Assembly: GCA_012729055.1 (NCBI GenBank)
Contig: JAAYDW010000021.1
Span: forward strand, 1 to 48,032
DNA: 48,032 bases
Source of the DNA: Deltaproteobacteria bacterium
GTDB taxonomy: Bacteria > Desulfobacterota > Syntrophia > Syntrophales > Smithellaceae
Reading direction: 5' to 3'
The position numbers and the translations under genes were made by a program. Below, piece by piece: positions 30,841 to 46,908 of this stretch (position 1 is the first letter of the stretch; each line of letters starts with the position of its first letter). Below the pieces are notes generated by a model. It did no database searches, was not told the origin of the DNA, and was given only the letters and a program-made list of their open reading frames with translations.

Positions 30841-33319
30841 GGTCCAGCTGCATATTGCGGGCATGACCTGCGCCGCCTGCGTGCGGCGCGTTGAGGAAGG
30901 TCTTCGCGCCATGGACGGCGTGCGCGCCGCGACGGTGAATTTCGCCACTGAAAAAGCGCAGGTGGAGTACGACGGGGCGCGGACCGACATTTCCGCCCTG
31001 CAGAATAAAGTGCGCGATTTGGGCTATGAATCCTTTGTCGATGCTTCCGCGTCGGGCCGGAGGAAAACGACGATTTCCGTGGGCGGCATGACCTGCGCGG
31101 CCTGCGTGCGGCGCGTGGAAAACGCGCTCAAGGACGTTGAAGGCGTGCTCGAGGCGAATGTCAATCTGGCCACCGCCCGCGCCACCGTGATCCACGCGGA
31201 CCGCTGGGCGGGCGTTGCCGCGCTGGCCTCCGCCGTCGCCGACCAGGGCTATGAATTTCTGGGCGAGATCACCGAAACGGGCGCCGATCCGATCGAGGCC
31301 GCGCGCACCCGGGAGCTTGGCGAACTGAAGCTGAAAGTCGCAGCCGGCGCCGTACTCTGTGTCATCATCTTCTTTGGGTCGATGCAGCACTGGTTCGGTT
31401 TTCTGGATGCGATTCCCCGCCGGACGATGCTTGTGGCGATGTTTTTTTTAACGGCGCCTGCGGTGTTCTGGGTGGGCAGCCGTTTTTTTGTCGGAGCCTG
31501 GAAGGCCGCAAAACAAAAGACGTCGGATATGAACACGCTCGTCGCGGTGGGCGCTTTCTGCGCGTACGCCTATTCTGCGGCGGCGACTTTTTTCCCGCAT
31601 TTTTTTGAAAAGGCTGGCGTGGCGCCCCATGTTTACTACGACGGCGCGGCGATGATCATCACGCTGATTCTCCTTGGCCGCCTGCTCGAAGCGACGGCCA
31701 AGGGAAGAACCTCCCAGGCGATTAAGAACCTGATCGGGCTCGCCCCCCGGACGGCCCGCGTCATCCGGGACGGCGCGGAGACGGAAGTTCCCGTGGAGGC
31801 GCTGCAAATCGGCGACGAGGTGGTGGTGCGGCCGGGAGAAAAAGTGCCGGTGGACGGCGAAATTCTGACGGGCCGGTCCACGCTCGATGAGTCCATGCTG
31901 ACCGGCGAGAGCATGCCCGTGACGCGGGAAGCGGGGCAGAAGGTTTTTGCGGCCACGATCAATAAAACGGGAAGCTTTACGCTGCGGGCGACCGGCGTGG
32001 GCGCCGACACCATGCTGGCCCACATCATTCATCTGGTGGAAGAGGCGCAGGGGTCCAAGGCGCCGATCCAGCGCCTGGCGGACAAAGTAGCCTCCGTGTT
32101 TGTGCCGACGGTTTTCGTCATTGCCTTCATCACGTTTTTAGTCTGGTATCTTGTTCCCGCCGACGCCGGCTTCAGCCGGGCGCTCATCAACTTCGTGTCC
32201 GTACTCGTCATCGCCTGTCCCTGCGCGCTCGGGCTTGCCACGCCCACGGCGATCATGGTGGGCACCGGCCTGGGCGCGCAAAGCGGCATTCTGATCCGGG
32301 GCGGCGAGGCGCTGGAAAAAATCCATAAACTGAGCGTAATCGTGTTCGATAAAACCGGCACGCTCACCCGGGGCGAACCGGAAGTGACGGACATCGCGGC
32401 CGCCGAAGGGTTTAACGAAGACCGGGTGCTGGCCGTGGCTGCGGCGCTCGAGAAAACCTCGGAGCATCCGCTGGCCCGGGCCATCCTGACACGCGCGCAG
32501 GAGCGTGGGATCGCGCTGCCCGCCGCGGAAAATTTTGAAGCCCTGGCCGGCCTGGGTGCCCGGGCGGACGTGGAAGGGAAGCCCTGTCTGATCGGCAACC
32601 GGGCGCTTGTGGACCAGGAGGGCGTTGCCGTTTTGCCGCTCCAGAAAACCGCGGCGGCGCTCGCCGATGCCGGCAAGACGGCGGTGTATGTGGTCGAGGG
32701 CGGAAAAGCGATCGGTGTGATCGCGCTCGCGGACGTTGCGAAGGCTTCGGCTGCCCAGGCGATTGCCCGTCTTAAGCAAAGGGGCCTCAGGGTGGCGATG
32801 GTGACCGGCGACAATTCGGGAACGGCCAGGAGCATCGCCGCTCAGCTGGGGATCGATTACGTGATGGCGGAAGTCCTCCCCGGCAACAAGGCGGACGAGA
32901 TTCGCGCATTGCAGTCCCAGGGTGAAGTCGTCGCCATGGTGGGCGACGGCATCAACGATGCGCCGGCGCTGGCGGCCGCCGATGTGGGCATCGCCATCGG
33001 CGCGGGAACGGATGTGGCCATTGAAGCCGCGGACATGACGCTCATCCGGGACGATCTGAATGTCGTTCCCCAGGCGATTGCCCTTTCGTTTTCAACCATG
33101 CGCGTCATCAAGCAGAATCTCTTCTGGGCGTTTATTTACAACATCATCGGCATTCCCATCGCCGCGGGCGCCTTGTATCCGTTCTTCGGCATTTTGCTGA
33201 ATCCTGAATTCGCCGCCGCGGCGATGGCGGCAAGTTCCGTTTCGGTCGTTACCAATTCACTGCGGCTCAAAAGGGTATGGCGCAGGCAACGCGAAGCGTC
33301 CGACGCCGGGACGGCGTAA
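30830..33319 (+). CDS. copA: Copper-exporting P1B-type ATPase with two HMA domains
   Basis: The product of about 829 residues has two N-terminal HMA domains, both with GMTCAAC. Eight transmembrane helices follow, with the Cu site ACPCALG, the phosphorylation motif FDKTGTLTRGE, the HP motif SEHPLA and the hinge MVGDGINDAPALAAADVG. It exports Cu(I) from the cytoplasm. A TTG at 30830 inside the end of copZ is the likely start, because the HMA domain begins a few residues later. An alternative ATG lies at 30797. A terminator lies beyond its end. Confidence 0.93.
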   Translation: MSDKVQLHIAGMTCAACVRRVEEGLRAMDGVRAATVNFATEKAQVEYDGARTDISALQNKVRDLGYESFVDASASGRRKTTISVGGMTCAACVRRVENALKDVEGVLEANVNLATARATVIHADRWAGVAALASAVADQGYEFLGEITETGADPIEAARTRELGELKLKVAAGAVLCVIIFFGSMQHWFGFLDAIPRRTMLVAMFFLTAPAVFWVGSRFFVGAWKAAKQKTSDMNTLVAVGAFCAYAYSAAATFFPHFFEKAGVAPHVYYDGAAMIITLILLGRLLEATAKGRTSQAIKNLIGLAPRTARVIRDGAETEVPVEALQIGDEVVVRPGEKVPVDGEILTGRSTLDESMLTGESMPVTREAGQKVFAATINKTGSFTLRATGVGADTMLAHIIHLVEEAQGSKAPIQRLADKVASVFVPTVFVIAFITFLVWYLVPADAGFSRALINFVSVLVIACPCALGLATPTAIMVGTGLGAQSGILIRGGEALEKIHKLSVIVFDKTGTLTRGEPEVTDIAAAEGFNEDRVLAVAAALEKTSEHPLARAILTRAQERGIALPAAENFEALAGLGARADVEGKPCLIGNRALVDQEGVAVLPLQKTAAALADAGKTAVYVVEGGKAIGVIALADVAKASAAQAIARLKQRGLRVAMVTGDNSGTARSIAAQLGIDYVMAEVLPGNKADEIRALQSQGEVVAMVGDGINDAPALAAADVGIAIGAGTDVAIEAADMTLIRDDLNVVPQAIALSFSTMRVIKQNLFWAFIYNIIGIPIAAGALYPFFGILLNPEFAAAAMAASSVSVVTNSLRLKRVWRRQREASDAGTA

Positions 33320-34720: not shown

Positions 34721-35416
34721 CTATTTCTCGACGACAAACTGCGATTTGTCTGCGCCGCAGATCGGGCAGGTCCAGGAATCGGGAACGTCTTCGAAGCGGG
34801 TTCCGGCCGCGACGCCGTTGTCGGGATCGCCTTTTTGGGGATCGTAGACGTATCCGCAGACGCTGCATACATAGCGCGGGGCGGCGGCCGGTTTGGGTTT
34901 GGCGGCGGCCGCGTCCGCATCGAACGTCGGGGCGGTTTTCGGAGATTTGCCGCCTTTGACATTCCGGTAGTAGGCGTACGTCATCGGCGTTCCATCCGCC
35001 AGCACGTCGGCGTCCACCACTTTGCCGAGAAAGAGCGTGTGTGTTCCGCAATCCAACTCCCCTTCCAGTTCGGCTTCGATGAAAGACAGACAGTAGTCGA
35101 GCACGACCGGCACGCCGGTTGAACCGGGGCGGGTTTTGACCTCTTTGAGCTTGTCCACGGTCCGGCCGCTTTTGAAGCCGAACAGGCCGATGAAAGTCAT
35201 CGGCGCGGCTTCCGATACGACCGACACCGTGAATTTACGGCTTTTTGAAATCAATTCGTGCGTATAATTTTCCTTGTTGATGCAAATGGCCAGCATGGCC
35301 GGCTTGGAGGTGGCCTGGATGATGGAATTGGCGATCTGGCCGTTGAACTTTCCGTCGCTGCCGGAGGTGACGATATAAAGGCCGTAGCTGATCTCATGAA
35401 GGGCCGCTCGATTCAT
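34721..35416 (-). CDS. Flavin reductase-like protein with C-terminal rubredoxin domain
   Basis: The 231-residue product has an FMN-binding flavin-reductase-like domain (residues about 1-155: [48 protein letters not shown]) and an Ala/Pro-rich linker. A rubredoxin domain follows with [12 protein letters not shown] and [13 protein letters not shown], which supply four Cys for iron. Such fusions act as oxidoreductases in oxidative-stress or electron-transfer pathways of anaerobes. The start at 35416 is inferred from domain boundaries; upstream codons are not family-like. The gene is divergent from the acyl-chain cluster. Confidence 0.9.
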
Positions 35417-35510
35417 AATGGACTCCTGTTTTCCGGGTGAATTTTGTAGCGTTTTCTTATAACTGAAAATTGTCATTCCCGCCACGAAATTTCTTTGGGG
35501 GTTTTTTCTT

Positions 35511-35537
35511 TTGACAAATGCCGGTTTCTTGTATAGG
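35511..35537 (+). promoter_or_regulatory. Possible promoter of the acyl-chain cluster
   Basis: TTGACA (35511-35516) and TATAGG (35532-35537) are separated by a short 15-bp spacer. They lie 118 bp before the first cluster gene in an AT-rich gap. Confidence 0.35.
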
Positions 35538-35654
35538 GACTCCAAACGTCAGAGATTTTGAGATATTATCCGATCGGGCCTGAGTTGTCCGCGTGCGGAC
35601 AACGGATATAACCGTCGCGCCGGTCGGGCGTGCCTTACAGAAAGAGAAAAAATC

Positions 35655-36248
35655 ATGATGACTTATGAGATGTTTTTACAGAGGAATTCCTTTGCTTTTG
35701 AAGAACTCCTGGCTTTTTCCCACGGCTCGCTGGTTTCCGATCCGCCGGCCGGATGGGAAGCCCGTCTGCCCGCGCCGCCGTTTCTGATGATGGACCGGAT
35801 TGTGCGGATTGAAAGCACGGGCAATGCCGGGAAGGTCGTTGCCGAACAGGACATCCGCCTCGACGCGTGGTATTTTCAGTGCCACTTTACGAATGATCCC
35901 GTGCAACCCGGTTGTCTGGGGGTGGACGCCGTCTGGCAACTTCTGGGATTTTTCTGTATCTGGCGCGGCGCGGTGGGGGCGGGCCGCGCGCTGGGATGCG
36001 GAGAAGTCGTGTTCAACGGCCAGATCCGGCCCTATAACCGGGTGGTTCGTTACGAAATCGACGTTCGGCGCTATTCCCGGCTCAAGGATTCCGGGGCGTC
36101 CGTCGTTATCGGCGACGGCCGGGTTTATGCGGACGACGAACTGATTTACACCGTCGGCCAGGCCAGAACCGGCCTGTTCAAGGGCATCGCCTATCCCGAT
36201 TACCCGAATCGGTCGAAAAACGCCGTCGGGGGTATTCTGCAGCGATAA
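35655..36248 (+). CDS. FabA-like 3-hydroxyacyl-ACP dehydratase
   Basis: The 197-residue protein resembles FabA: PAPPFLMMDRIV, then WYFQCHFTNDPVQPGCLGVDAVWQLLGFF. The catalytic pair is present as His77 and Asp91, 14 residues apart as in FabA. It would dehydrate 3-hydroxyacyl-ACP and perhaps isomerise the product to a cis double bond. It is the first gene of the plus-strand acyl cluster, so the product may carry unsaturation. It is slightly longer than FabA (172) because of the N-terminal 30 residues. Confidence 0.88.
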   Translation: MMTYEMFLQRNSFAFEELLAFSHGSLVSDPPAGWEARLPAPPFLMMDRIVRIESTGNAGKVVAEQDIRLDAWYFQCHFTNDPVQPGCLGVDAVWQLLGFFCIWRGAVGAGRALGCGEVVFNGQIRPYNRVVRYEIDVRRYSRLKDSGASVVIGDGRVYADDELIYTVGQARTGLFKGIAYPDYPNRSKNAVGGILQR

Positions 36249-36353
36249 GCCTCCCGCCACGGCGGACGGCAAGAAAAAAGGATTGAAAATCTTTCCCGAT
36301 TGACGCTATGATCCCGCGTTTTCTGAAATACTTAAGCCGGATTGGGACAGGGT

Positions 36354-36752
36354 TTGAACATTATTAAAAAAGCGGCTCTTTTTTGTGCCCGCACCAAATA
36401 CTGCCGGCAGGCGATTGAAGAACGCGCCGATCTGTCGGCGATGCGGGAAAAACCTACGGCCAAGATGATGATTGGTCTGGGGCTCGTCGCGTTCAGCTAT
36501 GTGATCGGTTTGCCGGCGGTCATTGCGATGGGCATTATCGCGGTCTGGCTTCGGGAGCCGCTGGTGGGCATCGTCGGCGGACCGCTGATTTACGCGATTT
36601 CCACCATTATTTTTATTGTCGGCATTAAAATGGCGGGGAAGAAGTATTTTCATGTTTTTTCCCGGTGGCTGGTGCGGGTGGCGCTGGAGAAAATTCTGGG
36701 CGAGGACATCCGCGCGGTGTGCGCGCCCGGTCCGGACGACCGGTGTTCGTGA
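36354..36752 (+). CDS. Small membrane protein of unknown function in the acyl cluster
   Basis: The frame encodes about 130 residues with two or three hydrophobic segments (MMIGLGLVAFSYVIGLPAVIA, IVGGPLIYAISTIIFIVGIKM) and a basic stretch near the end. No family is recognised. The start is uncertain: TTG codons at 36342 and 36354 and ATG at 36441 are all in frame. Its place between the FabA-like gene and the first ACP suggests it belongs to the cluster, perhaps as a membrane tether. Confidence 0.6.
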   Translation: MNIIKKAALFCARTKYCRQAIEERADLSAMREKPTAKMMIGLGLVAFSYVIGLPAVIAMGIIAVWLREPLVGIVGGPLIYAISTIIFIVGIKMAGKKYFHVFSRWLVRVALEKILGEDIRAVCAPGPDDRCS

Positions 36753-36800
36753 AGCTGAAGCGGTTTAGACTGCTCAATATTAACATATTCGAGGTGGCTC

Positions 36801-37073
36801 ATGAGTGCGATTGAAGAAACAATCAGTGAACTGAAGGTGAAAATCATTGCGACGCTGGGACTTTTGGATGTGACCCCCGACGACATCAAGGATGACGAAC
36901 CGCTTGTGGGCGGCGATACGGGCATTGATTCCATCGATGTTCTGGAACTGGTCATGATGATCGAAAAGGATTACGGCGTAAAAATCGAGAGCAAGGAACT
37001 GGGCGCCAGGGTATTTGCGTCGGTCCGCGCGCTGGCGACATACATCCGCGAGGCTCAGAAGGCCAGAGCCTGA
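36801..37073 (+). CDS. Acyl carrier protein 1 of the cluster
   Basis: The 90-residue acidic protein has the phosphopantetheine site GIDSIDVLELVMMIE, with Ser44 as the attachment residue. GAGGTG lies 6 nt before the start. It would carry the growing or modified acyl chain. It is not linked to a fabF-fabD-fabG operon, so it is a dedicated rather than a housekeeping ACP. Confidence 0.92.
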   Translation: MSAIEETISELKVKIIATLGLLDVTPDDIKDDEPLVGGDTGIDSIDVLELVMMIEKDYGVKIESKELGARVFASVRALATYIREAQKARA

Positions 37074-37129
37074 GGGTTCTTGAGGCCGGACGACCAGACG
37101 AGACAACGACCCTCAAGCGGAAGAAGTCC

Positions 37130-38482
37130 ATGAAAAAAGTCCTGTTGATTTCAGCCAACATAATGAAAAAGCCCTATCCGGTCTATCCGCTGGGGCTGGA
37201 CTACGTGGCGGGCGCGCTTGCATCCCGCTACGAAACAAAAATCCTGGATATGAACGACGGGCTCTCCCCCGCTTCGCTCGGGGAGGAGATCCGGCGCCTT
37301 GCGCCCGATTACATCGGTTTGTCCATTCGCAATATCGACAATACGGACACCATCAACAGCCGGGGATTTCTGTCCGACTATCAGGCGCTGGCGGGCGTCA
37401 TCCGGCAAAATTCTCAGGCGCCGCTCATTCTGGGCGGCAGCGGCTACACCGTCTTTCCGGTAGAGTTTCTCCGCGCGCTGGATGCGGATTACGGCCTGGC
37501 GGGAGAAGGGGAGAGGTTTCCCGCGCTGCTCGACGCCCTGGAGGGCCGGGGCGGCGTCGAGGCCGTACCGGGTGTGGTCACCCGGCAGTCGAAAGCGGTT
37601 TCCTGTCGCGCCTGGGAGGGCGATCTGCGCCGCGCCTTTGTTCCGGAAGCCGCGCATACCAAATATTATCTTTCCTACGGCGGCATGCTCAATTTGCAGA
37701 CCAAGCGAGGCTGTCCGTTTCGGTGCAGCTACTGCACCTATCCGCACATCGAAGGCGCGAAAATGCGTTTTTTCCCGCCTGAAGAAGTGGCGCGCCAGGC
37801 CCGCGCGCTCGAGGAAGCGGGCGCCAAATATATTTTCATCACCGATTCCGCGTTCAACGCGAGCTACGACCACAGCCTGCGGGTGGCCCGGGCGTTTCAA
37901 GAGGCGCGTCTCACCATTCCGTGGGGCGGTTTTTTTGCCGCCACCGTTCCTCCCGACGGTTACTACCGCGCGCTGGCCGATGCGGGGCTTACGCACGTGG
38001 AATTCGGCACGGAGTCGATGTGCGACGCCATGCTGGCGGGACTGCGAAAGCCTTTTGTGTCGGACGATGTCTTCCGGGCGCACGAAGCGGCGCTGGCGGC
38101 GGACCTGTTTATCGCCCATTACTTTTTGTTGGGCGGCCCCGGCGAAAACGAGGAAACGCTGCGGCAAACACTGGCCAATATCGATCGACTGGAGCGAGCG
38201 GTTTTCTTCTTCTTTTGCGGCATCCGGATTTATCCGCACACGGCTCTCTACGAAACGGCGCTTTGCGAGGGCCAGATTTCCGCGCGCCAAAATCTGATCG
38301 AGCCCGTTTTTTACCGCTCGCCCTTCATTTCCGACGTTGAAATCATACAAAAGGTTGAAGCGCACGCCGCCGGACGGATCAACTGGCTTATCGGCGCGGG
38401 CGAGGGCAAGGCGACGCGCATTTTGCCCCGGCTTTATGAGCGGGGGCACACGGGGCCGCTTTGGGAACACTTGATTGTCTAG
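37130..38482 (+). CDS. B12-binding-domain radical SAM enzyme (BchE-like architecture)
   Basis: The 450-residue protein has an N-terminal Rossmann-like cobalamin-binding-type domain (residues 1-140: GLDYVAGALAS, LAPDYIGLSIRN, LILGGSGYTVFP). The radical SAM core has the cluster site C195-PFR-C199-SY-C202 in TKRGCPFRCSYC. The DxHxxG motif for base-off cobalamin is not visible, so cobalamin binding is uncertain. Class B-type enzymes catalyse methylation, cyclisation or ring rearrangement. Between an ACP gene and a deacetylase gene it probably acts on an acyl or envelope-lipid substrate. Confidence 0.88.
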   Translation: MKKVLLISANIMKKPYPVYPLGLDYVAGALASRYETKILDMNDGLSPASLGEEIRRLAPDYIGLSIRNIDNTDTINSRGFLSDYQALAGVIRQNSQAPLILGGSGYTVFPVEFLRALDADYGLAGEGERFPALLDALEGRGGVEAVPGVVTRQSKAVSCRAWEGDLRRAFVPEAAHTKYYLSYGGMLNLQTKRGCPFRCSYCTYPHIEGAKMRFFPPEEVARQARALEEAGAKYIFITDSAFNASYDHSLRVARAFQEARLTIPWGGFFAATVPPDGYYRALADAGLTHVEFGTESMCDAMLAGLRKPFVSDDVFRAHEAALAADLFIAHYFLLGGPGENEETLRQTLANIDRLERAVFFFFCGIRIYPHTALYETALCEGQISARQNLIEPVFYRSPFISDVEIIQKVEAHAAGRINWLIGAGEGKATRILPRLYERGHTGPLWEHLIV

Positions 38483-38524
38483 CGGACCGGCCGGTCGCGC
38501 CGCGCCTGCGGGGAGGCTTTTTAA

Positions 38525-39334
38525 ATGGAAGGTGGAAAAAACCGGCCGCGTCCTGCTCTGATCGCCGGCGTGGCGTTTCTGATTGCCGCGTTCGGACTTT
38601 TTTTCTTTGAGCCGCTTCTTGCGGCGGCGTGGCTCCTGGCCTACGTGGTTCTGTGCGTGGCGGCCTGCTTTTTCCCGCAAACCAATTTTCTGGGTCCGGT
38701 GATCAGCCGGGGCCGCACGGGGACAAATCAAGTAGCCCTGACCTTTGACGACGGTCCGTCTCCCTCAACCACGCCCGCGATTCTCGATGCGCTCGACCGG
38801 CATTGCGCGCCGGCCACCTTTTTTGTTTCCGGCCTCAACGCCGAAAAATACCCCGAACTGATCGCGGACATTCTCCGGCGGGGCCATGCCGTCGGAAATC
38901 ACACGTACCGTCACGATCCGCTGGTGATGCTGAAGGGCTACCGGACTCTGTACCGGGAAGTGAACGACGCGATTGTTGCGCTCCGGCGCCTGGGCGTCGA
39001 TGCTCGGGCGTTTCGCCCTCCGGTCGGAATCGTCAATCCGGGACTGTTTCCGATTCTGGATGAGCTGGGACTGTTTTGCGTCACGTTCAACCGGCGGGCG
39101 CGCGATGCGGGGAATCTCCGCGTTTTGCAGCTTGCGGAAAAAATTCTCGGACGCGTGAAAGGCGACGACATTATTTTGCTCCACGATGTCAAACCCCGCC
39201 GGCCCGGTGATGAAACGGCGTTTGCGCGGGAAATTGAAAAAATTCTGGCGGGCATCAGGCGGCGGGGGCTGGACATCGTCCCGCTGGCCGAGCTTATCGG
39301 CCGGGAAACAATGTCCGGCGTGCGGTCGTCTTAG
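38525..39334 (+). CDS. Polysaccharide deacetylase (NodB domain) with membrane anchor
   Basis: The 269-residue protein begins with two hydrophobic segments (IAGVAFLIAAFGLFFF, AAAWLLAYVVLCVAACFF). The NodB domain follows: VALTFDDGPSPSTTP with the catalytic and metal Asp, then GHAVGNHTYRHDPL with the metal His pair. Later motifs (FRPPVG, DIILLHDV) are present. It should deacetylate an N- or O-acetylated glycan, or deacylate a related substrate, at the outer face of the inner membrane. Its presence in the lipid-like cluster hints at a glycolipid product. Confidence 0.88.
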   Translation: MEGGKNRPRPALIAGVAFLIAAFGLFFFEPLLAAAWLLAYVVLCVAACFFPQTNFLGPVISRGRTGTNQVALTFDDGPSPSTTPAILDALDRHCAPATFFVSGLNAEKYPELIADILRRGHAVGNHTYRHDPLVMLKGYRTLYREVNDAIVALRRLGVDARAFRPPVGIVNPGLFPILDELGLFCVTFNRRARDAGNLRVLQLAEKILGRVKGDDIILLHDVKPRRPGDETAFAREIEKILAGIRRRGLDIVPLAELIGRETMSGVRSS

Positions 39335-39464
39335 CCGTTTCGGGCCGGCGGCCATTAGTCCGTTGACGCCGGAAAAAATTTTTGATTGAAAAAACAATCA
39401 ATGATATAGAGTTGAACCCTTACTGTCTGACAAGGGTTAATGGACCGGCTGAAAGGAGGAAATC

Positions 39465-39836
39465 GTGACGGATCGCTGGAAATTGCTTCAGGAAATCCGC
39501 AGAGCTGCGCCCAATATCCTGGAAGCCGAAGTGACCGTGCCTTGCGATTCCGTCTGGTTTGCGGGCCATTTTCCGGGCGAACCGATTCTGCCCGGCATTG
39601 CCATCCTGCACGCGGTTTCCGAAGCGATTGAACGGGACGCGCAAACGAGAGGCGAGACCTCCCGGATTGCATCCCTGAAGCGCGTTCGCTTCACGGGTCC
39701 TGTCCGGCCCGGGGACACGATCCTCCTGCATCTGACAAACGAAGACGTCCGCAAAGAGAAAGAGGTTAATTTCAAAGTGGCGCACGGAGGCAGAATTATC
39801 TGTACCGGCCAGGTGGTCGTGACGAAAACGGAATAA
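39465..39836 (+). CDS. FabZ/ApeI-like hotdog dehydratase with altered catalytic acid
   Basis: The 123-residue single-hotdog protein starts at GTG 39465 after AAAGGAGGA. The motif is FAGHFPGEPILPGIAILHA, with His35 as catalytic base. In FabZ the partner Glu is 14 residues later; here that residue is His49. Some aryl-polyene dehydratases also deviate from Glu at this place, so it may still dehydrate. The gene lies 26 bp before the second ACP gene. Confidence 0.85.
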   Translation: MTDRWKLLQEIRRAAPNILEAEVTVPCDSVWFAGHFPGEPILPGIAILHAVSEAIERDAQTRGETSRIASLKRVRFTGPVRPGDTILLHLTNEDVRKEKEVNFKVAHGGRIICTGQVVVTKTE

Positions 39837-39861
39837 AGAGAAAACCATAAAGGAGGACGGA

Positions 39862-40134
39862 ATGCCTGAAAGCAAGGACATCCGGGGCATTGAAAGACAT
39901 GTGGCGGAAATCATCATCGGCGAGCTCAAGCTGGAGGACGTGACCCCGGACACCTTCAATCCGGGAATGGATCTGGTGGATGAACTGGGGATCGACAGCA
40001 TGGATCTGGCGACGATCGCGCTGGTTTTGCAGGATGAATACAAAATTGTCATCGACGAAGACGATTATCCCAAATTGAAAACCGTCCGTCTGATTGCCGA
40101 ATATATCGAGGAGAAGCTGGCCGCAAAGCAGTGA
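39862..40134 (+). CDS. Acyl carrier protein 2 of the cluster
   Basis: The 90-residue protein has the phosphopantetheine motif ELGIDSMDLATIALVL with Ser46. It differs clearly from ACP1 in the rest of its sequence (KLEDVTPDTFNPGMDLVD, IDEDDYPKLKTVRLIAEYI). GGAGGACGG precedes the start. It lies between the hotdog dehydratase and the first of two radical SAM genes, so it probably presents the chain to these enzymes. Confidence 0.92.
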   Translation: MPESKDIRGIERHVAEIIIGELKLEDVTPDTFNPGMDLVDELGIDSMDLATIALVLQDEYKIVIDEDDYPKLKTVRLIAEYIEEKLAAKQ

Positions 40135-40155
40135 TTTGCCGGCCGGAGGAGATTC

Positions 40156-41265
40156 ATGACCGTTGCTACTAAAACAACCGCGGCGGAAAAACCGCGTTTT
40201 TCCGATCTGCTGGCGCACCCGGACGTGCGGGAGCGCTGGGAGAAGGTCCGCAAGTTTTTTTTCCTGCGGGAATCCACCTACGATATGACCAACCGCTGCA
40301 ACATCCGGTGCGATGGCTGTTACTACTACGAAGGGGACAAACAGTTCGCCGCGGAAAACCTTTCCGCCCCGGACTGGCGCCGACTGATGCAGGCCGAAAA
40401 GGCGCGCGGCATCACCTATGTGGTGCTGGCGGGGGCGGAACCGTCTCTGGTCCCCGAGCTGCTTTCCGTCTGTTATTCTGAAATGCCGTTGGGGAGCATC
40501 GCCACCAACGGATTTAAAAAGATACCGGAGTCGGTCGGCTACAAGATCCATATTTCCGTCTGGGGCAACGACGAGACAAGCGAAAAAACGCGCGGCGCCA
40601 AACATCTCCTTCAAAAGCAGATTGAGAATTATCAAAACGATCCCCGCGCGGTATTTGTGTATACGTTTACACGCGACAACATCGACGAGGCCTCTGCCGT
40701 GGCGGCCGATCTGGTCGCCGCCGGCTGCAGCATGACGTTTAATGTCTTTTCTTCCCCGGTCGGATATGCGGGGCCCCTGCGCCACGACGCGGATTCGCTT
40801 TTGAGAACCCGGGAGATGATGATGGCGCTTTTAGACCGTTATCCCCGGCAGGTGCTCTTTTCCGCTTACAACGCCGTCGCGCACACGAGCGGCCAGGGTC
40901 TGCACGCTCTTTACCGCTGCTCTTACCCCCGCTGCAATCCGTCGCAGGACATCGGTCTGGGCCGCTCTTTCCGCCAGTACCGGACGGACTTGAACTGGGA
41001 CCGGTCGGCGGCCTGCTGCGTGCCGGATACGGACTGCGCAGACTGCCGCCATTACGCCGCCGGTTCCGCCGTGGTGACGGCAAGGCTCTACCGCCATGTC
41101 GGGGACGCGGAGACCTTCAAATCCTGGCTGGATTACGTGGACACCTACCTGGCAGTCTGGGTCATGGGATATGAAAAGGGGAAGAATCTCAGTTCGAAAA
41201 TCATCCGCCCGCCGGGGGCGGCGGCAGGTCCAACCGCCGGCTGCTCCGGGTCTGAGGGCGTATAA
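40156..41265 (+). CDS. Radical SAM enzyme A of the acyl cluster
   Basis: The 369-residue protein has the radical SAM cluster site C48-NIR-C52-DG-C55 in MTNRCNIRCDGCYYYEG, then VVLAGAEPSLVPELL (GGE-like) and SIATNGFKKIP. A C-terminal Cys group, CCVPDTDCADC, suggests an auxiliary Fe-S cluster of SPASM or twitch type. It is paralogous to the next gene. Substrate is unknown; cluster context suggests an ACP-bound acyl chain, but a small peptide or a sugar remains possible. AGGAG precedes the ATG, 22 bp after the ACP gene. Confidence 0.87.
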   Translation: MTVATKTTAAEKPRFSDLLAHPDVRERWEKVRKFFFLRESTYDMTNRCNIRCDGCYYYEGDKQFAAENLSAPDWRRLMQAEKARGITYVVLAGAEPSLVPELLSVCYSEMPLGSIATNGFKKIPESVGYKIHISVWGNDETSEKTRGAKHLLQKQIENYQNDPRAVFVYTFTRDNIDEASAVAADLVAAGCSMTFNVFSSPVGYAGPLRHDADSLLRTREMMMALLDRYPRQVLFSAYNAVAHTSGQGLHALYRCSYPRCNPSQDIGLGRSFRQYRTDLNWDRSAACCVPDTDCADCRHYAAGSAVVTARLYRHVGDAETFKSWLDYVDTYLAVWVMGYEKGKNLSSKIIRPPGAAAGPTAGCSGSEGV

Positions 41266-41281
41266 GTAAGGAAGAAGGAAG

Positions 41282-42277
41282 ATGAAAACGGTCAGCACCC
41301 TGCTGGATGCCGAATGGCGCGAACGCTATCGCCGGATATCCAGCCTCAACATCCGCAGCTCGATTTACGATCTCACCTGCCGCTGCAATCTGCGCTGCAA
41401 GGGGTGTTTTTTCTTTTCTTCGGGCGAGCATCACGTTCAGGAAGAAATGGATATCCGCAAGTGGGAAGCCTTCATCGACCGGGAAAAGGCCCGCGGCGTG
41501 AATCTGGCGATTCTCATCGGCGGAGAGCCGACGCTGTGCATGGACCGCCTGGAGGCTTTCTATCGGCGCATTCCGACGTACTGCGCGACCAACGGCCTCA
41601 TCAAGGTTCCCCGCGACCGTTTTCCCGACATGATGGTGGGCATTTCCCTGTGGGGCGGCGGCGAAGATGAAAAGATCCTGCGGGGCAGGGATACGTTTGC
41701 CGTCTCGAGCAAAAACTATGAGGGCGATCCCTACACCTATTATCTTTACACAGTAACGCCCAAACAGGTGGGAAAAACCGAACCGGTCATTCGGCGCATC
41801 GCCGACTGCGGCCTGAAAGTTCATCTGCAGCTGCTTTCCAACGACGAAGGCGTGGACGGGTTTTCCTGGCGGCCCGAGGAGCTCAGCGATCTGCGGTTCG
41901 AAATGGACGAAATGCTCGACCGCTATCCGCGGACCGTCATTTCCAGCAAGTACTACCACGAGGTGATCACCACCGGCATGATGCAGGGCCGCCGTTTCGG
42001 CTGGCGCGAATGCCCGTCCGTGACCGAATCCCTCGACACCCGGCAGCCGCCGGTGCGCCGGCTCATTCATTTTTACCGCTGGGGGGCCGATTTGCAGACC
42101 GTTCACCGCTGCTGCACGTCCGCCACGCGCGACTGCTCCACCTGCAAGGACGGCGCGGCGCACATGAGCTGGATCATGGTCAACAAGCGCGATCACATGA
42201 CGAGCACGAAAGATCTGCAAAACTGGATTGAAGTGTACGAGATGTTTGCCAAGCTCTACCGGCTGATTCCATGGTGA
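41282..42277 (+). CDS. Radical SAM enzyme B of the acyl cluster, paralogue of A
   Basis: The 331-residue protein has the cluster site C35-NLR-C39-KG-C42 in LTCRCNLRCKGCFFFSS, the SAM-binding LIGGEPTLCMDRL, and TNGLIKVPRDRFPDMMVGISLWGGGEDE. The C-terminal Cys group HRCCTSATRDCSTC parallels that of gene A. Shared blocks (SIYDLT/STYDMT, EKARGVNLAILIGGEP/EKARGITYVVLAGAEP, ISLWGGGEDE/ISVWGNDETSE) show a duplication that has diverged. It lies 16 bp after gene A and is presumably co-transcribed with it. Confidence 0.87.
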   Translation: MKTVSTLLDAEWRERYRRISSLNIRSSIYDLTCRCNLRCKGCFFFSSGEHHVQEEMDIRKWEAFIDREKARGVNLAILIGGEPTLCMDRLEAFYRRIPTYCATNGLIKVPRDRFPDMMVGISLWGGGEDEKILRGRDTFAVSSKNYEGDPYTYYLYTVTPKQVGKTEPVIRRIADCGLKVHLQLLSNDEGVDGFSWRPEELSDLRFEMDEMLDRYPRTVISSKYYHEVITTGMMQGRRFGWRECPSVTESLDTRQPPVRRLIHFYRWGADLQTVHRCCTSATRDCSTCKDGAAHMSWIMVNKRDHMTSTKDLQNWIEVYEMFAKLYRLIPW

Positions 42278-42381
42278 TCTTGAGCCTGACAGGCTGTAGA
42301 CTGTAAGGCTGTTAGGTGAACAAACGACACGGGATCAAAAAGATTCTGCCCCGCCTTCCGATAACATTCTTGAAAAAATAA

Positions 42382-42410
42382 TTGATATTTTCGGCCGGCT
42401 CTTGCATATT
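42382..42410 (+). promoter_or_regulatory. Possible internal promoter before the ketosynthase genes
   Basis: TTGATA (42382-42387), a 17-bp spacer and CATATT (42405-42410) lie in the only long gap of the cluster (42278-42472). This suggests that the downstream genes may form a second transcript. Confidence 0.4.
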
Positions 42411-42472
42411 GGCCGCTCCTGTGAAAAATAAAGAGCCCGCTTTGGTGGGGCAAAGGAAAGGGAAAACATCGT

Positions 42473-43720
42473 TTGTCCGGAAAAACACTCATCTTAGCGT
42501 ACGACGCTGTTTCGTCTCTGGGGACGGATCTGGAAAACCAGTGGCAGCGCGCCTGCCGCGGCGAGAGCGGCATCGGCCCCCTCACCCGTTTTCCGTACGG
42601 CGCTGATTTTCCCGTGCGCGTCGCGGGCCAGGTCGAGGACGTGGATGTGCGGCCCTATCCTTTTTTGCAGCCGCGCGAAATGGCGCACTGGACGTCGCCG
42701 ATCTTCAAATACGCTCTCCTGGTGGTCCACCGGGCACTGGCGAAAAGCGGCATCGACATTGCGCCCGACGTCGCGCCGCGCGTGGCCGTCACCTTCAGCT
42801 CGGCCGTCGGCGGACAGGACGCGGTGCTGAAGGCGGACCGCCAGATGATCGCCGAAAACAAGCTGCCGCATCCCTTTGCCAATCCCAACTCCTGCATCAA
42901 CATGGTGGGCGGCAAGGTCTCCATTCTGACGGGTGCCACCGGTCCGATCTCTGCCACCATCACGGCGTGCGCCACCGGCGTCACGTCCATGATCATCGGC
43001 GACATGATGATCCGGCAGAATCTGGCGGACGTGGTGATCGCCGGCGCCGTCGATTTTCCGCTGGTCGAACCGATCCTGGCGGGCTTTGCGACCATGAACG
43101 GCGCGTATCGCCCCAAGGAAGGGCAGCCCCACGAAGCGCCGGAAAAAACGAGCCGGCCCTTCTCGGTCAACCGCCGGGGATTCGTCGTTTCCGAAGGGGC
43201 GGGCGCCGTTATTCTCGCCTCGCCGGCTTTTGCCCGGGCGCACGGCCTTGCGGCAAAAATCGAAATGGCCGGATTCGGCATGACGTCCGACGCCAGCCAT
43301 TTTGTGGCGCCCAATCCGGCGACGGTCGAGCGCTGCATCGCCATCGCGATTGCGGACGCGGGGCTCGCGCCCGCACAGGTGGACGCCGTCAACGCCCATG
43401 CGACCTCGACGAAAATCGGCGACAAGGTGGAAGCGGACGCGCTCGAGAGGGTCTTCGGCAAAAAGGCGCCGCCCACTTCGGCCAACAAGTCGCAGCTCGG
43501 CCACGCCATGGGCGCATCCTCCGCCATTGAAACGATTCTGGCGATGGAAGGCATGCTGCGCGACACAGTCCTGCCTACCGTCAACTATGAACCGGACCCG
43601 GCCATTCGGATCGACTGCGTGCCCGGAACCGCCAGAAAACTCAGCCAGGAGTTTGTGCTTAAAAACGCGTTCGGCTTCGGCGGCTGCAATGCCTGCCTGC
43701 TGTTGCGCCGGATCGCGTAA
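42473..43720 (+). CDS. Beta-ketoacyl-ACP synthase, FabF-like (KAS 1)
   Basis: The 415-residue protein retains the complete ketosynthase triad: Cys166 (ITACATGVTS), His309 (NAHATSTKIGD) and His344 (KSQLGHAMGA). It should condense malonyl-ACP with an acyl chain. The start is a TTG at 42473, because the frame aligns with FabF only from there; AAAGGAAAGGG precedes it. The final motif FGFGGCNACLLLRR has Cys in place of the usual Thr/His-rich end. It is the first of a pair of ketosynthase genes, which in type II polyketide systems often work together. Confidence 0.9.
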   Translation: MSGKTLILAYDAVSSLGTDLENQWQRACRGESGIGPLTRFPYGADFPVRVAGQVEDVDVRPYPFLQPREMAHWTSPIFKYALLVVHRALAKSGIDIAPDVAPRVAVTFSSAVGGQDAVLKADRQMIAENKLPHPFANPNSCINMVGGKVSILTGATGPISATITACATGVTSMIIGDMMIRQNLADVVIAGAVDFPLVEPILAGFATMNGAYRPKEGQPHEAPEKTSRPFSVNRRGFVVSEGAGAVILASPAFARAHGLAAKIEMAGFGMTSDASHFVAPNPATVERCIAIAIADAGLAPAQVDAVNAHATSTKIGDKVEADALERVFGKKAPPTSANKSQLGHAMGASSAIETILAMEGMLRDTVLPTVNYEPDPAIRIDCVPGTARKLSQEFVLKNAFGFGGCNACLLLRRIA

Positions 43721-43738
43721 GGCGATGGAAGGCAAATT

Positions 43739-45004
43739 ATGAAACCTCCGCTAAACCGCAGAGTCTTTGTCGTCGGATACGGGACGGCCACGCCGCTGGG
43801 AAGCACGTTTGCCCAAACCTGGCAGCGCGCCGTCCGGGGCGAAGCGGGATTCCGCAAGGTCACCCGCTGCAAGGTCGAGTCGGCCTGCGACGTCGTGGGC
43901 GAGATTCCGGACTGGTTCCCCCTGGAACTTGATTTCACCGACGCCAAGGAAGTCTACAACTGGAACGCGGCGTTCGTCATCCTGACCATGGCCGTCTGCA
44001 AGGATGCGCTTGCGGACGCAGGGATTGTGATGGATGAAACCATTGCGCCCCGCATGGCCTGCCTGATCGGATCGGCGCTCAACGGATCGGACGCATTTCG
44101 CGTGGCGATGCACGACCTGGAACACCGCGGTCCGCTGCGCGTGAGCCCCTACCTGCTGCCGAATTTGTGCGCCAATCTGCCGTCGGGCAAGGCGGGCATG
44201 CTCCTGAAATTCACCGGGCCCATCTTTTCGCCGCAGGGCGCCTGTGCCTCGGGCAACCACGCCATCGGCATCGGCGCGCGCATGATCCGCGACGGAGACT
44301 GCGACTTTGTTCTGGCGGGCGGGGCGGATGCGCCGATTCTGCCGGAGCTGATCCACGGCTTTGCCAACATGAACGCCACCGTCAAGGTGCACGCCGACGA
44401 CCGCGCCGCGAAGGATTTTGCGCAGGCGTCGCGTCCGTTCAGCATCGACCGCCGGGGATTTGTCCTTTCCGAAGGCGCGGGCGTCGTGGTGCTGGCGGCG
44501 GAAGAAGTCGCAAAGGCTCATGGCCTGACGCCGCGGGCGGAAGTCCTGGGGGTGGGCTGGACCTCCGATGCTTACCACTACACCAGCCCGAATCCGGCGA
44601 CGATCATCCGGGCGTTGCGGGAAACGATCGCGGACGCACAGCTCAAGCCGGCCGACATCCAGTATGTGAACGCCCACGGCACGTCCACACCCAAGGGCGA
44701 CCGGACGGAAATCAAATGCCTGCGCGAGGTTTTCGGCAAACTGATGGAGAAGATTCCCGTCTCGTCCAATAAATCCCAACTGGGACACACGCTGGGGGCG
44801 ACCGCCGCCATTGAGGCCGCGCTGACCATTGAAGGCATGCGGCAGGGGATTCTCCTGCCGACCATCAATCACCTGCCCGATCCGGAATTTGCCGATATCG
44901 ACGTGGTGCCCAATGCCGCCCGCCGGCAGAAGTACGAAATTGCTTTGTCCAACGCCTTCGGATTCGGCGGAACGAACTGCTGCGTCATCTTTCGAGGAGT
45001 GTGA
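43739..45004 (+). CDS. Beta-ketoacyl-ACP synthase, FabF-like (KAS 2)
   Basis: The 421-residue protein has Cys169 (GACASGNHA), His313 (VNAHGTSTPKGD) and His350 (KSQLGHTLGA). Thus it is catalytically complete, unlike a chain-length-factor partner, which lacks the Cys. It is distant from KAS 1. It lies 18 bp after KAS 1 and 1 bp before the thioesterase gene, so all are co-translated. Two active ketosynthases suggest different chain-length or starter preferences. Confidence 0.9.
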   Translation: MKPPLNRRVFVVGYGTATPLGSTFAQTWQRAVRGEAGFRKVTRCKVESACDVVGEIPDWFPLELDFTDAKEVYNWNAAFVILTMAVCKDALADAGIVMDETIAPRMACLIGSALNGSDAFRVAMHDLEHRGPLRVSPYLLPNLCANLPSGKAGMLLKFTGPIFSPQGACASGNHAIGIGARMIRDGDCDFVLAGGADAPILPELIHGFANMNATVKVHADDRAAKDFAQASRPFSIDRRGFVLSEGAGVVVLAAEEVAKAHGLTPRAEVLGVGWTSDAYHYTSPNPATIIRALRETIADAQLKPADIQYVNAHGTSTPKGDRTEIKCLREVFGKLMEKIPVSSNKSQLGHTLGATAAIEAALTIEGMRQGILLPTINHLPDPEFADIDVVPNAARRQKYEIALSNAFGFGGTNCCVIFRGV

Positions 45005-45005
45005 C

Positions 45006-45491
45006 ATGCGACCCAAACCATTTGTGCCTGAAGCCTTTTCCAACGACGAGCGTTTTGTCCGCGACCGGACCACGGGGCTGGTCTGGCACCGGGCCACGTA
45101 CCGCGTGCTCTACGCGGACACGGACCGTTCACAGGTAGTTTACCATTCCAACTATCTGCGTTATTTCGAATACGGTCGAACGTCGCTTATGCGCGATGTG
45201 GCGTATCCCTACAAGGAAATTGAAGACAGCGGCTACGTCTATCCGATTTACGATCTGGGCGTGTCTTTCTATACGTCCCTGTTTTACGACGACGTCATGC
45301 ACATCCATACGCGGCCGGTGCGCCTGGAGCGCGTGAAGCTCCAGTTCGACTATGTAATCACGCATGCGGAAAAAGAATGTCTTGTCTGCACGGGCTTCAC
45401 CCGGCACTGCGCGGCCAACGCCGCCGGCCGGCCCGTGGCGGTCGATCCGAAAACGGTGCAGCTATGGCAAACCTTTCCCGACAAGATTTGA
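45006..45491 (+). CDS. YbgC-like acyl-CoA/acyl-ACP thioesterase
   Basis: The 161-residue hotdog protein has the 4HBT motif LYADTDRSQVVYHSNYLRYFEYGR with catalytic Asp40, then FYDDVMHIHTRPVRLERVKLQFDY. Within the cluster it could release the finished chain from the ACP, or edit it. The start lies 1 bp after the KAS 2 stop and the gene overlaps the next by 28 bp. Confidence 0.88.
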   Translation: MRPKPFVPEAFSNDERFVRDRTTGLVWHRATYRVLYADTDRSQVVYHSNYLRYFEYGRTSLMRDVAYPYKEIEDSGYVYPIYDLGVSFYTSLFYDDVMHIHTRPVRLERVKLQFDYVITHAEKECLVCTGFTRHCAANAAGRPVAVDPKTVQLWQTFPDKI

Positions 45492-46336
45492 CAGTCCGCC
45501 ATCCGCTTCCGCTTTGTGTCCCGCCGTACGTGCGGGACCATGTTTTTCAGGGAAAGATTATTTTTCCCGCCGTGGAGGCCATGATCATCCTGGCCCGCGC
45601 GGTGAAAGACCATCATCCGCAGGCGGCGCTTTTTGACATGGTCGACGCGTCCTTTCCCCGGATGCTGGAGATTGCGCCCGGCCAGAACACGCTCGATGCC
45701 CTTGTGGAGATGGAGGTTGCCAAAGACCGGATCCGGGCTTCGCTTTTAACGACGGTCCGGATTAAAAACGGCGCGATGCGGCGGACGCTGGAACACGCGC
45801 GGGTGACTTTTCTGCAGGAGGAAGGGGGTTCCCCGCCGACGGCGGATTTCCGGACCGCCCGGAAGCTCGGCGACGCGTGCATCTGTGTTCCTTCCGCATC
45901 GATTTACCGGGAGCTGATTCCTTTTGGCGCCTCCTACCGGAACATCGCCGGCGATCTGGCCGTTTCGCGAAGCGGCGCTTTTGCGGAGGTTTCCGGCGGA
46001 CAGGCTCCGGCCGACAGTCTTCTGGGGTCGCCCTTTACGCTGGACGCCGCGATGCACGCCGCCTGCGTCTGGGGGCAGCGGTTTGCCGGCAGAGTCACGC
46101 TGCCGGTCGGATTTGCCGGACGGGTAATTGTTGCGCCCACACACCCCGGCGGCTTCTACCCGGTGCGCATTTCGCCTGCAGAGGCCCAGGGGGAGACGCT
46201 TCTGTTTCATGTCTGGATCTTCGATCAGGAAGGGGCGCTCTGTGAATGCATCCGGGGACTCGGCATGCGTGATGTGACGCGGGGGGATCTCCGTCCGCCG
46301 CAGTGGATCGGTGAGGGAGCATGGGAAAACTCTTAA
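45464..46336 (+). CDS. Polyketide-synthase-type dehydratase (double hotdog), free-standing
   Basis: The 290-residue protein resembles the DH domain of modular polyketide synthases: DHVFQGKIIFP matches HxxxGxxxxP with His26, and SPFTLDAAMHAACVW gives Asp194. These are the catalytic dyad of double-hotdog dehydratases. It is unusual to find this as a stand-alone gene outside PUFA or polyketide clusters. It would introduce trans double bonds in a growing chain. The start at 45464 is chosen because the frame before it matches the thioesterase gene in another frame. Confidence 0.85.
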   Translation: MANLSRQDLTVRHPLPLCVPPYVRDHVFQGKIIFPAVEAMIILARAVKDHHPQAALFDMVDASFPRMLEIAPGQNTLDALVEMEVAKDRIRASLLTTVRIKNGAMRRTLEHARVTFLQEEGGSPPTADFRTARKLGDACICVPSASIYRELIPFGASYRNIAGDLAVSRSGAFAEVSGGQAPADSLLGSPFTLDAAMHAACVWGQRFAGRVTLPVGFAGRVIVAPTHPGGFYPVRISPAEAQGETLLFHVWIFDQEGALCECIRGLGMRDVTRGDLRPPQWIGEGAWENS

Positions 46337-46908
46337 TGGTCTGTCTGCTGGCGTATCTTGCCGGCTCCGTCAATTTCGCCATCATTTTCTTTAAGATTGC
46401 CGGGAAGGCGGATCCGCGCCTGGGCTTCAGCGGCAACGCCGGCACGACCAACGTTTACCGCCAGGCGGGCCGGCTCTGGGCGGCGCTGATCTTTGCGCTC
46501 GACATCGGCCGGGCGCTGGCCGTGGCGGCGCTGGCGCTGTATTTTCTGGATCGCGCCTGGCTGGCCTGGCCAGGTTTTTTTCTGATCCTGGGAAATACGT
46601 TTCCCTGTTTTCACGGCTTTCGCGGCGGAAAGGGCGTGGCCAATTATCTGGGATTCACGCTGCTCGTCGCGCCCTGGGCGGCGCTTGCGGCCTGCACCCT
46701 CTGGGTGATGGTCTATGCGGTCGTCCGCCGGCCGTTTGTCGCGTCTTTTTTCATGGCGGCCGCGCTCGCGGCGGGACAAGCCCAACCGCTTGACGTGTCC
46801 TGGCCCGCCCTTTCGGGAGCGCTTACCGCATTTATTTTAATCGTCTTCAATCATCGGGAAAACATCCGGCAATACCGTCGGGAACGGAATTCGACTTCTT
46901 GCCCGTAA
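46321..46908 (+). CDS. PlsY-like glycerol-3-phosphate acyltransferase
   Basis: The 195-residue polytopic membrane protein has the three PlsY blocks: SGNAGTTNVYRQAG, GNTFPCFHGFRGGKGVANYLG and FNHRENIRQYRR. PlsY uses acyl-phosphate to acylate glycerol-3-phosphate. As the last gene of the acyl cluster, it may put the unusual chain into a membrane lipid. It overlaps the dehydratase gene by 16 bp. It could be the housekeeping PlsY, but the first block is slightly altered (SGNAGTTNVYR for SGNIGATNxxR). Confidence 0.88.
   Translation: MGKLLMVCLLAYLAGSVNFAIIFFKIAGKADPRLGFSGNAGTTNVYRQAGRLWAALIFALDIGRALAVAALALYFLDRAWLAWPGFFLILGNTFPCFHGFRGGKGVANYLGFTLLVAPWAALAACTLWVMVYAVVRRPFVASFFMAAALAAGQAQPLDVSWPALSGALTAFILIVFNHRENIRQYRRERNSTSCP

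Follow-up and report, generated by a model that had tools for sequence, protein, structure and literature searches.

Introduction

Aryl-polyene (APE) gene clusters are characterized by a ketosynthase (KS)/chain-length factor (CLF) pair, acyl carrier proteins (ACPs), FabG, an ApeI-like dehydratase, a thioesterase, an acyltransferase, LolA, an MMPL protein, a methyltransferase, a lyase and a ligase. Rattray et al. describe a biosynthetic backbone common to anaerobic ammonium-oxidizing (anammox) bacteria and Desulfotalea (PMC2649909). They report the hydrocarbons C31:8 and C31:9 from Desulfotalea psychrophila, in which ladderanes were not found. Ladderane-type gene clusters have also been reported in Desulfobacterota (PMC9902471). 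Here we describe a related cluster in a deltaproteobacterial DNA stretch of 48,032 nucleotides (the window), which corresponds to contig C97 in an assembly of 3.36 Mb with a completeness rating of 100%. The cluster contains two paralogous radical S-adenosylmethionine (SAM) enzymes, rSAM1 and rSAM2. With moderate confidence, we read the window as carrying half of a type II acyl assembly line that anaerobes encode at two loci, related to APE and anammox 'ladderane' clusters and making a polyene-type lipid with rSAM1/rSAM2 chemistry; the other half lies on another contig of this genome, C15.

Results

A conserved eight-gene module

The cluster spans positions 35655-46908 and comprises 14 genes, all on the plus strand. 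Genes were called as open reading frames (ORFs) and assigned to families by Pfam and NCBIfam profile scores against their cut-offs. Eleven junctions are gaps of 1-195 bases and the last two overlap, in line with the short gaps and overlaps described in an earlier sequence-only reading, and every gene class named there is present on this strand.

When one genome per species was scanned, 329 stretches were found to encode an rSAM1 relative, and the best 80 of them were inspected. Among these best 80 of 329, on which our taxonomic statements rest, most carry Desulfobulbales, Desulfobacterales or deltaproteobacterial names, accompanied by two Chromatiaceae (Allochromatium palmeri and Thiorhodococcus mannitoliphagus) and by one Spirochaetes-labelled and one Planctomycetota-labelled metagenome-assembled genome (MAG). 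Gene neighbourhoods were compared at 117 loci, all picked for holding rSAM1, with three distant loci (L044, L045, L062) excluded beforehand; five of the 117 are repeated contigs, leaving 112 distinct loci. Presence was counted on the same strand within a locus, where the locus reaches far enough, and order was counted on core genes alone with intervening non-core genes ignored, many loci being cut by contig ends. Under these rules rSAM2 is present in 100/100 loci, ACP2 in 110/111, the FabZ-like dehydratase in 96/100, KS1 in 90/91, KS2 in 78/79, the thioesterase in 75/77 and the polyketide synthase (PKS)-type dehydratase (PSDH) in 61/64.

The order FabZ-ACP2-rSAM1-rSAM2-KS1-KS2-thioesterase-PSDH is kept at 72/72 of the distinct loci with a complete set of eight. 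ACP2 precedes rSAM1 in all 109 distinct loci with both, and rSAM2 is the next core gene after rSAM1 in 108/109. The sole break seen is at L048, where KS1 stands between rSAM1 and rSAM2 and no FabZ match was found. Because of these presence and order counts, we take the eight genes from FabZ to PSDH as the core, and FabA, NodB and PlsY as accessories. The neighbourhood comparison across genomes upholds the earlier proposal of a dedicated acyl-chain assembly line using radical chemistry, the genes being conserved together in many anaerobes, and the invariant core order rules out a chance assembly.

In a rival reading, radical SAM genes were inserted into an ordinary housekeeping locus for fatty acids (FabA, ACP, PlsY) to which they are unrelated; the single copy of PlsY in the genome and the position of FabA outside the conserved core would fit it. 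The constant core order, the occurrence of the core at loci without FabA or PlsY nearby, and further KS genes on contigs C41, C108 and C112 of the same genome make this explanation highly improbable.

In a tree of rSAM1 and rSAM2, the nearest rows to the window are the Spirochaetes-labelled MAG and Desulfobacterales-type MAGs. The two Chromatiaceae sequences group as sister to a Desulfobulbus MAG (100/99) within a Desulfobulbales clade, a placement which suggests that the module may have been transferred as a unit. The MAGs with Planctomycetota (L133) and Spirochaetes (L139) labels hold cluster pieces that may reflect either transfer or misbinning; the L133 genome also has ten HZS_alpha matches. 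A distant, lone rSAM1 homologue (L044, G057:C23:105888-106937; 32-34% identity) has no cluster genes within 20 kb around it and is a possible outgroup candidate for the rSAM1 family. None of 30 viral-contig stretches that matched a pattern encoded an rSAM1 relative, which is weak evidence against viral spread.

Gene content of the window cluster

The 14 genes are as follows.

35655..36248, plus strand: FabA-type dehydratase/isomerase (PF07977, 135.8 bits; PRK05174, 207.7 bits, cut-off 124)
36342..36752, plus strand: hyp136, a hydrophobic protein of 136 amino acids (gene-map homologues at 31-72% identity)
36801..37073, plus strand: ACP1, acyl carrier protein (PF00550, 40.6 bits)
37130..38482, plus strand: B12-binding radical SAM enzyme, TIGR04072 (rSAM_ladder_B12; 388.1 bits, cut-off 360)
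38525..39334, plus strand: NodB-type polysaccharide deacetylase with an N-terminal hydrophobic stretch (PF01522, 96.2 bits)
39465..39836, plus strand: FabZ/ApeI-like hotdog dehydratase, core (PF07977, 49.8 bits; ApeI-like PF22818, 29.0, cut-off 28.5)
39862..40134, plus strand: ACP2, acyl carrier protein, core (PF00550, 35.9 bits)
40156..41265, plus strand: rSAM1, radical SAM enzyme, core (PF04055, 28.0 bits, under the cut-off of 29.5)
41282..42277, plus strand: rSAM2, paralogue of rSAM1, core (PF04055, 29.4, under the cut-off of 29.5; Fer4_12, 22.6, over the cut-off of 22)
42473..43720, plus strand: KS1, FabF-like ketosynthase, core (PF00109/PF02801)
43739..45004, plus strand: KS2, FabF-like ketosynthase, core (PF00109/PF02801)
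45006..45491, plus strand: 4HBT-type thioesterase, core (PF13279, 46.5 bits on the ORF 44829-45491)
45377..46336, plus strand: PKS-type dehydratase (PS-DH), double hotdog, core (PF14765, 34.3 bits)
46321..46908, plus strand: PlsY, glycerol-3-phosphate acyltransferase (PF02660, 124.1 bits)

Catalytic residues are intact in the sequences compared. In the core, His35 of the FabZ-like hotdog protein is kept in 95/95 sequences and position 53 is Asp or Glu in 77/95, the ACP2 serine is found in 111/111, and PSDH retains His55 (45/45) and Asp223 (45/45). Both ketosynthases preserve the triad (Cys166, His309 and His344 in 97/97 for KS1; Cys169, His313 and His350 in 88/88 for KS2) and are predicted to be active, as had been proposed. 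Protein Data Bank (PDB) homology searches with the FabZ-like protein and KS2 gave nothing beyond FabZ- and FabF-type kinship. The thioesterase begins at an ATG at 45006, one base past KS2, and PSDH perhaps truly starts at 45464 or 45488. The window cluster contains no ketoreductase.

Outside the core, the ACP1 serine is conserved in 68/68 sequences and ACP1 lies upstream in 59/79 testable loci. The B12-binding radical SAM enzyme keeps CX3CX2C in 75/75, its gene occurring in 69/92 testable loci. The deacetylase retains its Asp-Asp and His-His pairs in 28/28 and is found on the same strand in 34/70, and FabA retains His77 and Asp91 in 13/13 aligned sequences, lying upstream on the same strand in 11/70, mainly within the window's own family. 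hyp136, which has no Pfam or NCBIfam match, lies downstream on the opposite strand in many Desulfobulbales-type loci and in both purple sulfur loci. In most members of the window's family, and at several further loci (for example L054, L055, L129, L141 and L142), PlsY stands at or near the cluster end. This position fits delivery to phospholipid, yet the gene may be a housekeeping one; a genome-wide scan identified it as the single PF02660 protein, so that a reading of PlsY as an additional copy dedicated to the cluster was dropped.

Divergent from FabA, a flavin reductase fused to a rubredoxin (34721-35545, minus strand; PF01613, PF00301) is a possible candidate electron donor. At most loci in the family of the window, an antisense frame overlapping it has matches at the same position. 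Farther away lie a P-type ATPase, matched twice by the heavy-metal-associated domain (30797-33319, plus strand), and a further radical SAM protein with a PF08497 N-terminal domain and no link to the cluster (27450-29225, minus strand).

The rSAM1/rSAM2 pair

rSAM1 and rSAM2 share 29% identity, and each carries an invariant CX3CX2C motif (116/116 and 109/109 sequences, respectively). The invariant cysteines are residues 48, 52, 55, 106, 255, 287, 288, 294 and 297 in rSAM1 (116/116) and 35, 39, 42, 244, 277, 278, 285 and 288 in rSAM2 (109/109). Near the C-terminus they include a second set of five (255, 287, 288, 294 and 297 in rSAM1; 244, 277, 278, 285 and 288 in rSAM2), which suggests a putative auxiliary Fe-S cluster. 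Neither protein matches PF13186 (SPASM), though this second set is present. rSAM1 matched no Pfam or NCBIfam family over its cut-off, and rSAM2 matched only the general Fer4_12. Thirteen sequences drawn from ten families show 69-84% identity to the rSAM2 of the window, a conservation that, judged from these alignments, is unusually strict for a secondary pathway.

Predicted structural models show a radical SAM fold with a mean pLDDT (predicted confidence) of 77 for rSAM1 and 76 for rSAM2. The closest structures to rSAM1 are BlsE, viperin-like enzymes, SkfB and GDGT-MAS, with Z scores of 15.2, 15.2, 14.8 and 12.2, a root-mean-square deviation of 3.0-4.0, 221-251 residues aligned and 16-21% identity over the aligned part; none of these is known to act on ACP-bound chains. 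Assignment of function from the fold was dropped, as the matches indicate a general radical SAM fold with near-tied rows. Assignment from PDB profiles was likewise rejected: rSAM1 pointed to SkfB and GDGT-MAS, and rSAM2 to SkfB and two further peptide-type entries, all weakly. Literature listings contained no description of the pair, subscription papers and preprints being outside their coverage, so that absence is not proven.

We raise as a tentative possibility that rSAM1 and rSAM2 represent a new radical SAM class, acting in tandem on an ACP-tethered chain within an otherwise polyketide-like type II line. In sulfate reducers and purple sulfur bacteria they would then make a C-C bond or ring that bacterial lipids are not known to contain outside anammox.

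A proposed partner locus on contig C15

A reading of the window cluster as self-contained was rejected on account of contig C15. This contig encodes a hotdog protein, FabG, LolA, a homologue of a 273-amino-acid protein, a FAD amine oxidase, an ACP, a third KS, an acyltransferase, and the ketosynthase-type proteins KSa and KSb. It further encodes an AMP ligase, an acyl-CoA dehydrogenase, a second B12 radical SAM enzyme, an aromatic amino acid lyase, a thioesterase, a FakA-DegV fusion, a GT2 glycosyltransferase and an MMPL-methyltransferase fusion. FabG is 59% identical to its L124 counterpart and LolA 36% to that of L124; the aromatic ammonia-lyase scores 505 bits, and the MMPL match reaches 40.1 bits within a fusion of 1024 amino acids. 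GC content is similar, 59.1% for C15 and 59.7% for the window cluster. The earlier statement that FabG, an MMPL exporter and an ammonia-lyase are lacking is correct for the window contig and incorrect for the genome. The conclusion drawn from it, that the set differs from APE clusters, is not supported, as all three lie on C15 and, in certain relatives, next to genes of the window type.

The two gene sets are adjacent to each other in Allochromatium palmeri, Desulfogranum mediterraneum, Desulfofustis glycolicus and Desulfatitalea alkaliphila. In these four the core runs on into ACP1, a fusion of a KS with a degenerate KS (720 amino acids in Allochromatium) and a divergent set comprising a FabZ-like hotdog protein, FabG, LolA, the 273-amino-acid protein and the second B12 radical SAM enzyme. 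Downstream, some carriers have a glycosyltransferase and the MMPL-methyltransferase fusion of about 1000 amino acids. In G026, G033, G077 and G171 a single contig carries the lyase together with C15-type genes and the rSAM module. Two genomes, G230 and G274, contain the C15-type backbone and lack rSAM1 and rSAM2 genome-wide, and over the 20 kb read nothing in them matches KS1, KS2 or PSDH; because they carry the backbone without the module, the module appears to be an addition to it.

The two halves also co-occur across genomes. rSAM1 matches were found in 28/40 relatives and, at more than 60% identity, in 21/297 genomes of a phylum sample; these 21 are the genomes above that level among 26 listed, five weak matches being excluded. 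In this sample the second B12 radical SAM enzyme (at least 48% identity) occurs in 21/21 rSAM1-positive genomes versus 15/276 without rSAM1 (Fisher p 7e-23, kinship ignored). Its identity is at least 66% in 19 of the positives, 48 and 51% in the other two, and at least 58% in the 15 negatives. The lyase occurs in 23/28 rSAM1-positive versus 1/12 rSAM1-negative relatives (Fisher p 2e-5, kinship ignored).

KSa keeps Cys-His-His, and KSb has Gly-Ala-Glu at those sites; the two resemble a KS/CLF pair in which KSb would be CLF-like. One KS has its best match to PRK09185, which we take to be the aryl-polyene KS family, at 338 bits, under the cut-off of 407. The ApeI-like FabZ match, the PRK09185-like KS and the loss of Cys and His in KSb point to a putative polyene-type KS/CLF logic.

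Two fusions are recurrent in this kind of locus. On C15, a FakA-like DAK2 domain is joined to DegV (L154:6927-8735), combining a fatty acid kinase and its acyl-binding partner in one protein; FakA-DegV homologues accompany the pathway in 10/11 mapped carrier genomes. MMPL-methyltransferase fusions of about 1000 amino acids are found at L154:9697-12771 (C15) and L106:17109-20153.

Comparison with anammox genomes

Of 50 genomes with an HZS_alpha match, 25 were taken as anammox (an inferred label) on the basis of 1-2 listed copies and a frame of about 715-844 amino acids; the remaining 25 had more copies, or frames of another length, and were left out. TIGR04072 scored over its cut-off in five of the 25 presumed anammox genomes, at 305-339 bits in nine, at 249 in one and at 152 or less in ten. 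Eight anammox-type stretches around TIGR04072-type genes were read, from six genomes. Four of them contain homologues of KSa, KSb, a rSAM/SPASM protein, the B12 enzyme, an ACP, the FAD oxidase and GT2, with MMPL in three of these four as well and FabG in two. In the remaining stretches, also four, the B12 enzyme alone is seen. None of the eight stretches was the site of a best match for rSAM1, rSAM2, KS1, KS2 or PSDH.

Profile searches with rSAM1 and rSAM2 gave no orthologue-level match in any of the 25 presumed anammox genomes, the best score being 53.5 bits over about 105-155 residues. In the rSAM2 run, two carriers searched alongside scored 699 and 674 bits; the rSAM1 run included no such carrier. 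Because of the stretch reading and these searches, we regard the backbone as partly common to anammox and the radical SAM pair as not. The likeness to anammox ladderane sets noted earlier therefore stands for TIGR04072 and, in half of the stretches, for the backbone, and fails for the radical SAM pair.

These data bear on whether the cluster makes a ladderane or ladderane-like ring lipid, its radical SAM enzymes folding a polyene chain into fused cyclobutanes. The window's B12 radical SAM enzyme exceeds the TIGR04072 cut-off and the backbone homologues are shared with anammox stretches, both in keeping with such a product. The rSAM1/rSAM2 pair has no orthologue in any presumed anammox genome, and none of these lipids was detected in D. 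psychrophila (PMC2649909). On the TIGR04072 survey, the stretch reading and the missing orthologues, this explanation ranks as a low rival, and we consider it very unlikely. When the candidate genes proposed by Rattray et al. were expressed in E. coli, no ladderanes were reportedly obtained. The expression itself is recorded in PMC4790861. Two FabF paralogues of Rattray et al. lack Cys and His and have Glu at the second His (PMC2649909); because KSb shares this Glu, they may be CLF-like subunits as well. Ladderane-specific steps may lie outside the shared backbone, because the anammox/sulfate-reducer backbone looks APE-like, and the Desulfobacterota with ladderane-type clusters described in PMC9902471 should not be taken for ladderane producers from their clusters alone.

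Discussion

The pathway that we propose would proceed from two sides. C15 would provide an aromatic starter (lyase and AMP ligase), a KS/CLF-like pair, a ketoreductase and a dehydratase, together with a FAD oxidase, an acyltransferase, LolA and the MMPL-methyltransferase exporter. The window locus would supply a second, ACP2-bound chain, made by KS1 and KS2 and dehydrated by FabZ and PSDH, with the ketoreductase step performed by FabG from C15 or elsewhere. On this chain, rSAM1 and then rSAM2 would abstract hydrogens, leading to desaturation, a C-C bond or a ring, where aerobes would use oxygen. The B12 radical SAM enzymes would probably methylate, and a thioesterase, an acyltransferase or PlsY would join the chain to, or place it in, a membrane or exported lipid, with MMPL and LolA serving export. 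We infer from gene content and synteny that both halves serve one product, that the ACP2-bound chain is the rSAM1/rSAM2 substrate and that the steps follow this order. The product itself is not predictable from sequence, as had been stated earlier, and is perhaps a pigment-like, polyene-type envelope lipid.

Several observations weigh against this proposal. A single product for both contigs rests on synteny in other genomes, and in D. japonicum (L106) the C15-type FabG-LolA set falls outside the 10 kb beside the core. A PF00221 lyase was identified in 4/13 genomes behind named loci, and none was found in Allochromatium, Thiorhodococcus, both Desulfogranum, Desulfofustis and Desulfatitalea, absences that are uncertain for MAGs, which may miss small contigs; five rSAM1-positive relatives, two of them incomplete, also lack it. 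Because so few of the 13 genomes have the lyase, an aryl head cannot be general. FabA and PlsY may each be housekeeping genes, because FabA is a neighbour at so few loci and PlsY is the sole copy. The Cys-rich part of both rSAM models is of low confidence, and Foldseek/VIA-align returned a general radical SAM fold only, with many near-ties and BlsE, viperin-like enzymes and SkfB as best matches.

The presence of FabA with two more kinds of dehydratase, and of PlsY near the cluster end, would also fit an anaerobic route to polyunsaturated fatty acids (PUFAs) or long-chain polyunsaturated hydrocarbons, in which the dehydratases retain double bonds, the rSAM pair desaturates and PlsY directs the chain to phospholipid. 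Such a route was proposed by Rattray et al. for D. psychrophila, the species with the C31:8 and C31:9 hydrocarbons (PMC2649909). The nine KS matches in the window genome have a longest open frame of 497 amino acids, and because no KS frame exceeds this length the genome has no Pfa-type megasynthase. A phospholipid chain needs none of the MMPL exporter, LolA, glycosyltransferase and, in some genomes, aromatic lyase of the partner set, and in Geobacter bemidjiensis such a hydrocarbon is tied to Pfa-like synthases (PMC3098273). We consider this route unlikely.

The module places two uncharacterised radical SAM enzymes in many genomes, including those of strains in culture collections. Because such strains carry it, the product of non-anammox 'ladderane-like' clusters is directly testable.

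Among known systems, Pfa-type PUFA synthases also combine FabA-like and PKS-type dehydratases with KS and ACP, with the difference that they are multidomain proteins and here all parts are separate. The anammox type II fatty acid synthesis (FASII) clusters Kuste3335-3352 and Kuste3603-3608 share with the present system TIGR04072, a rSAM/SPASM protein, KS including non-catalytic forms, ACP, FabG, a FAD oxidase, MMPL and GT2 (PMC2649909). The FASII clusters of D. psychrophila and Geobacter have a similar backbone with a radical SAM protein, a phytoene-dehydrogenase-like oxidase, a ligase and a membrane transporter, and the parts of that paper covered here describe no paralogous pair like rSAM1/rSAM2 for them (PMC2649909). 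D. psychrophila belongs to the phylum of the window genome, and its cluster is likely, if putatively, of the same family as the window's.

APE/flexirubin-type clusters have in common with C15 and the window a KS with a degenerate CLF-like KS, ACPs, FabG, an ApeI-like dehydratase, a thioesterase, an acyltransferase, LolA, an MMPL exporter and a methyltransferase, and with the window genome an aromatic amino acid lyase and an AMP ligase. In contrast to APE clusters, the gene sets here lie on two contigs, no PF00221 lyase is found in 9/13 genomes behind named loci, and the window and C15 hold B12 radical SAM enzymes, the rSAM1-rSAM2-KS1-KS2-thioesterase-PSDH module and FakA-DegV. Compared with these systems, the cluster is a real, conserved and uncharacterised variant of the aryl-polyene/'ladderane-like' cluster kind, with a distinctive radical SAM module.

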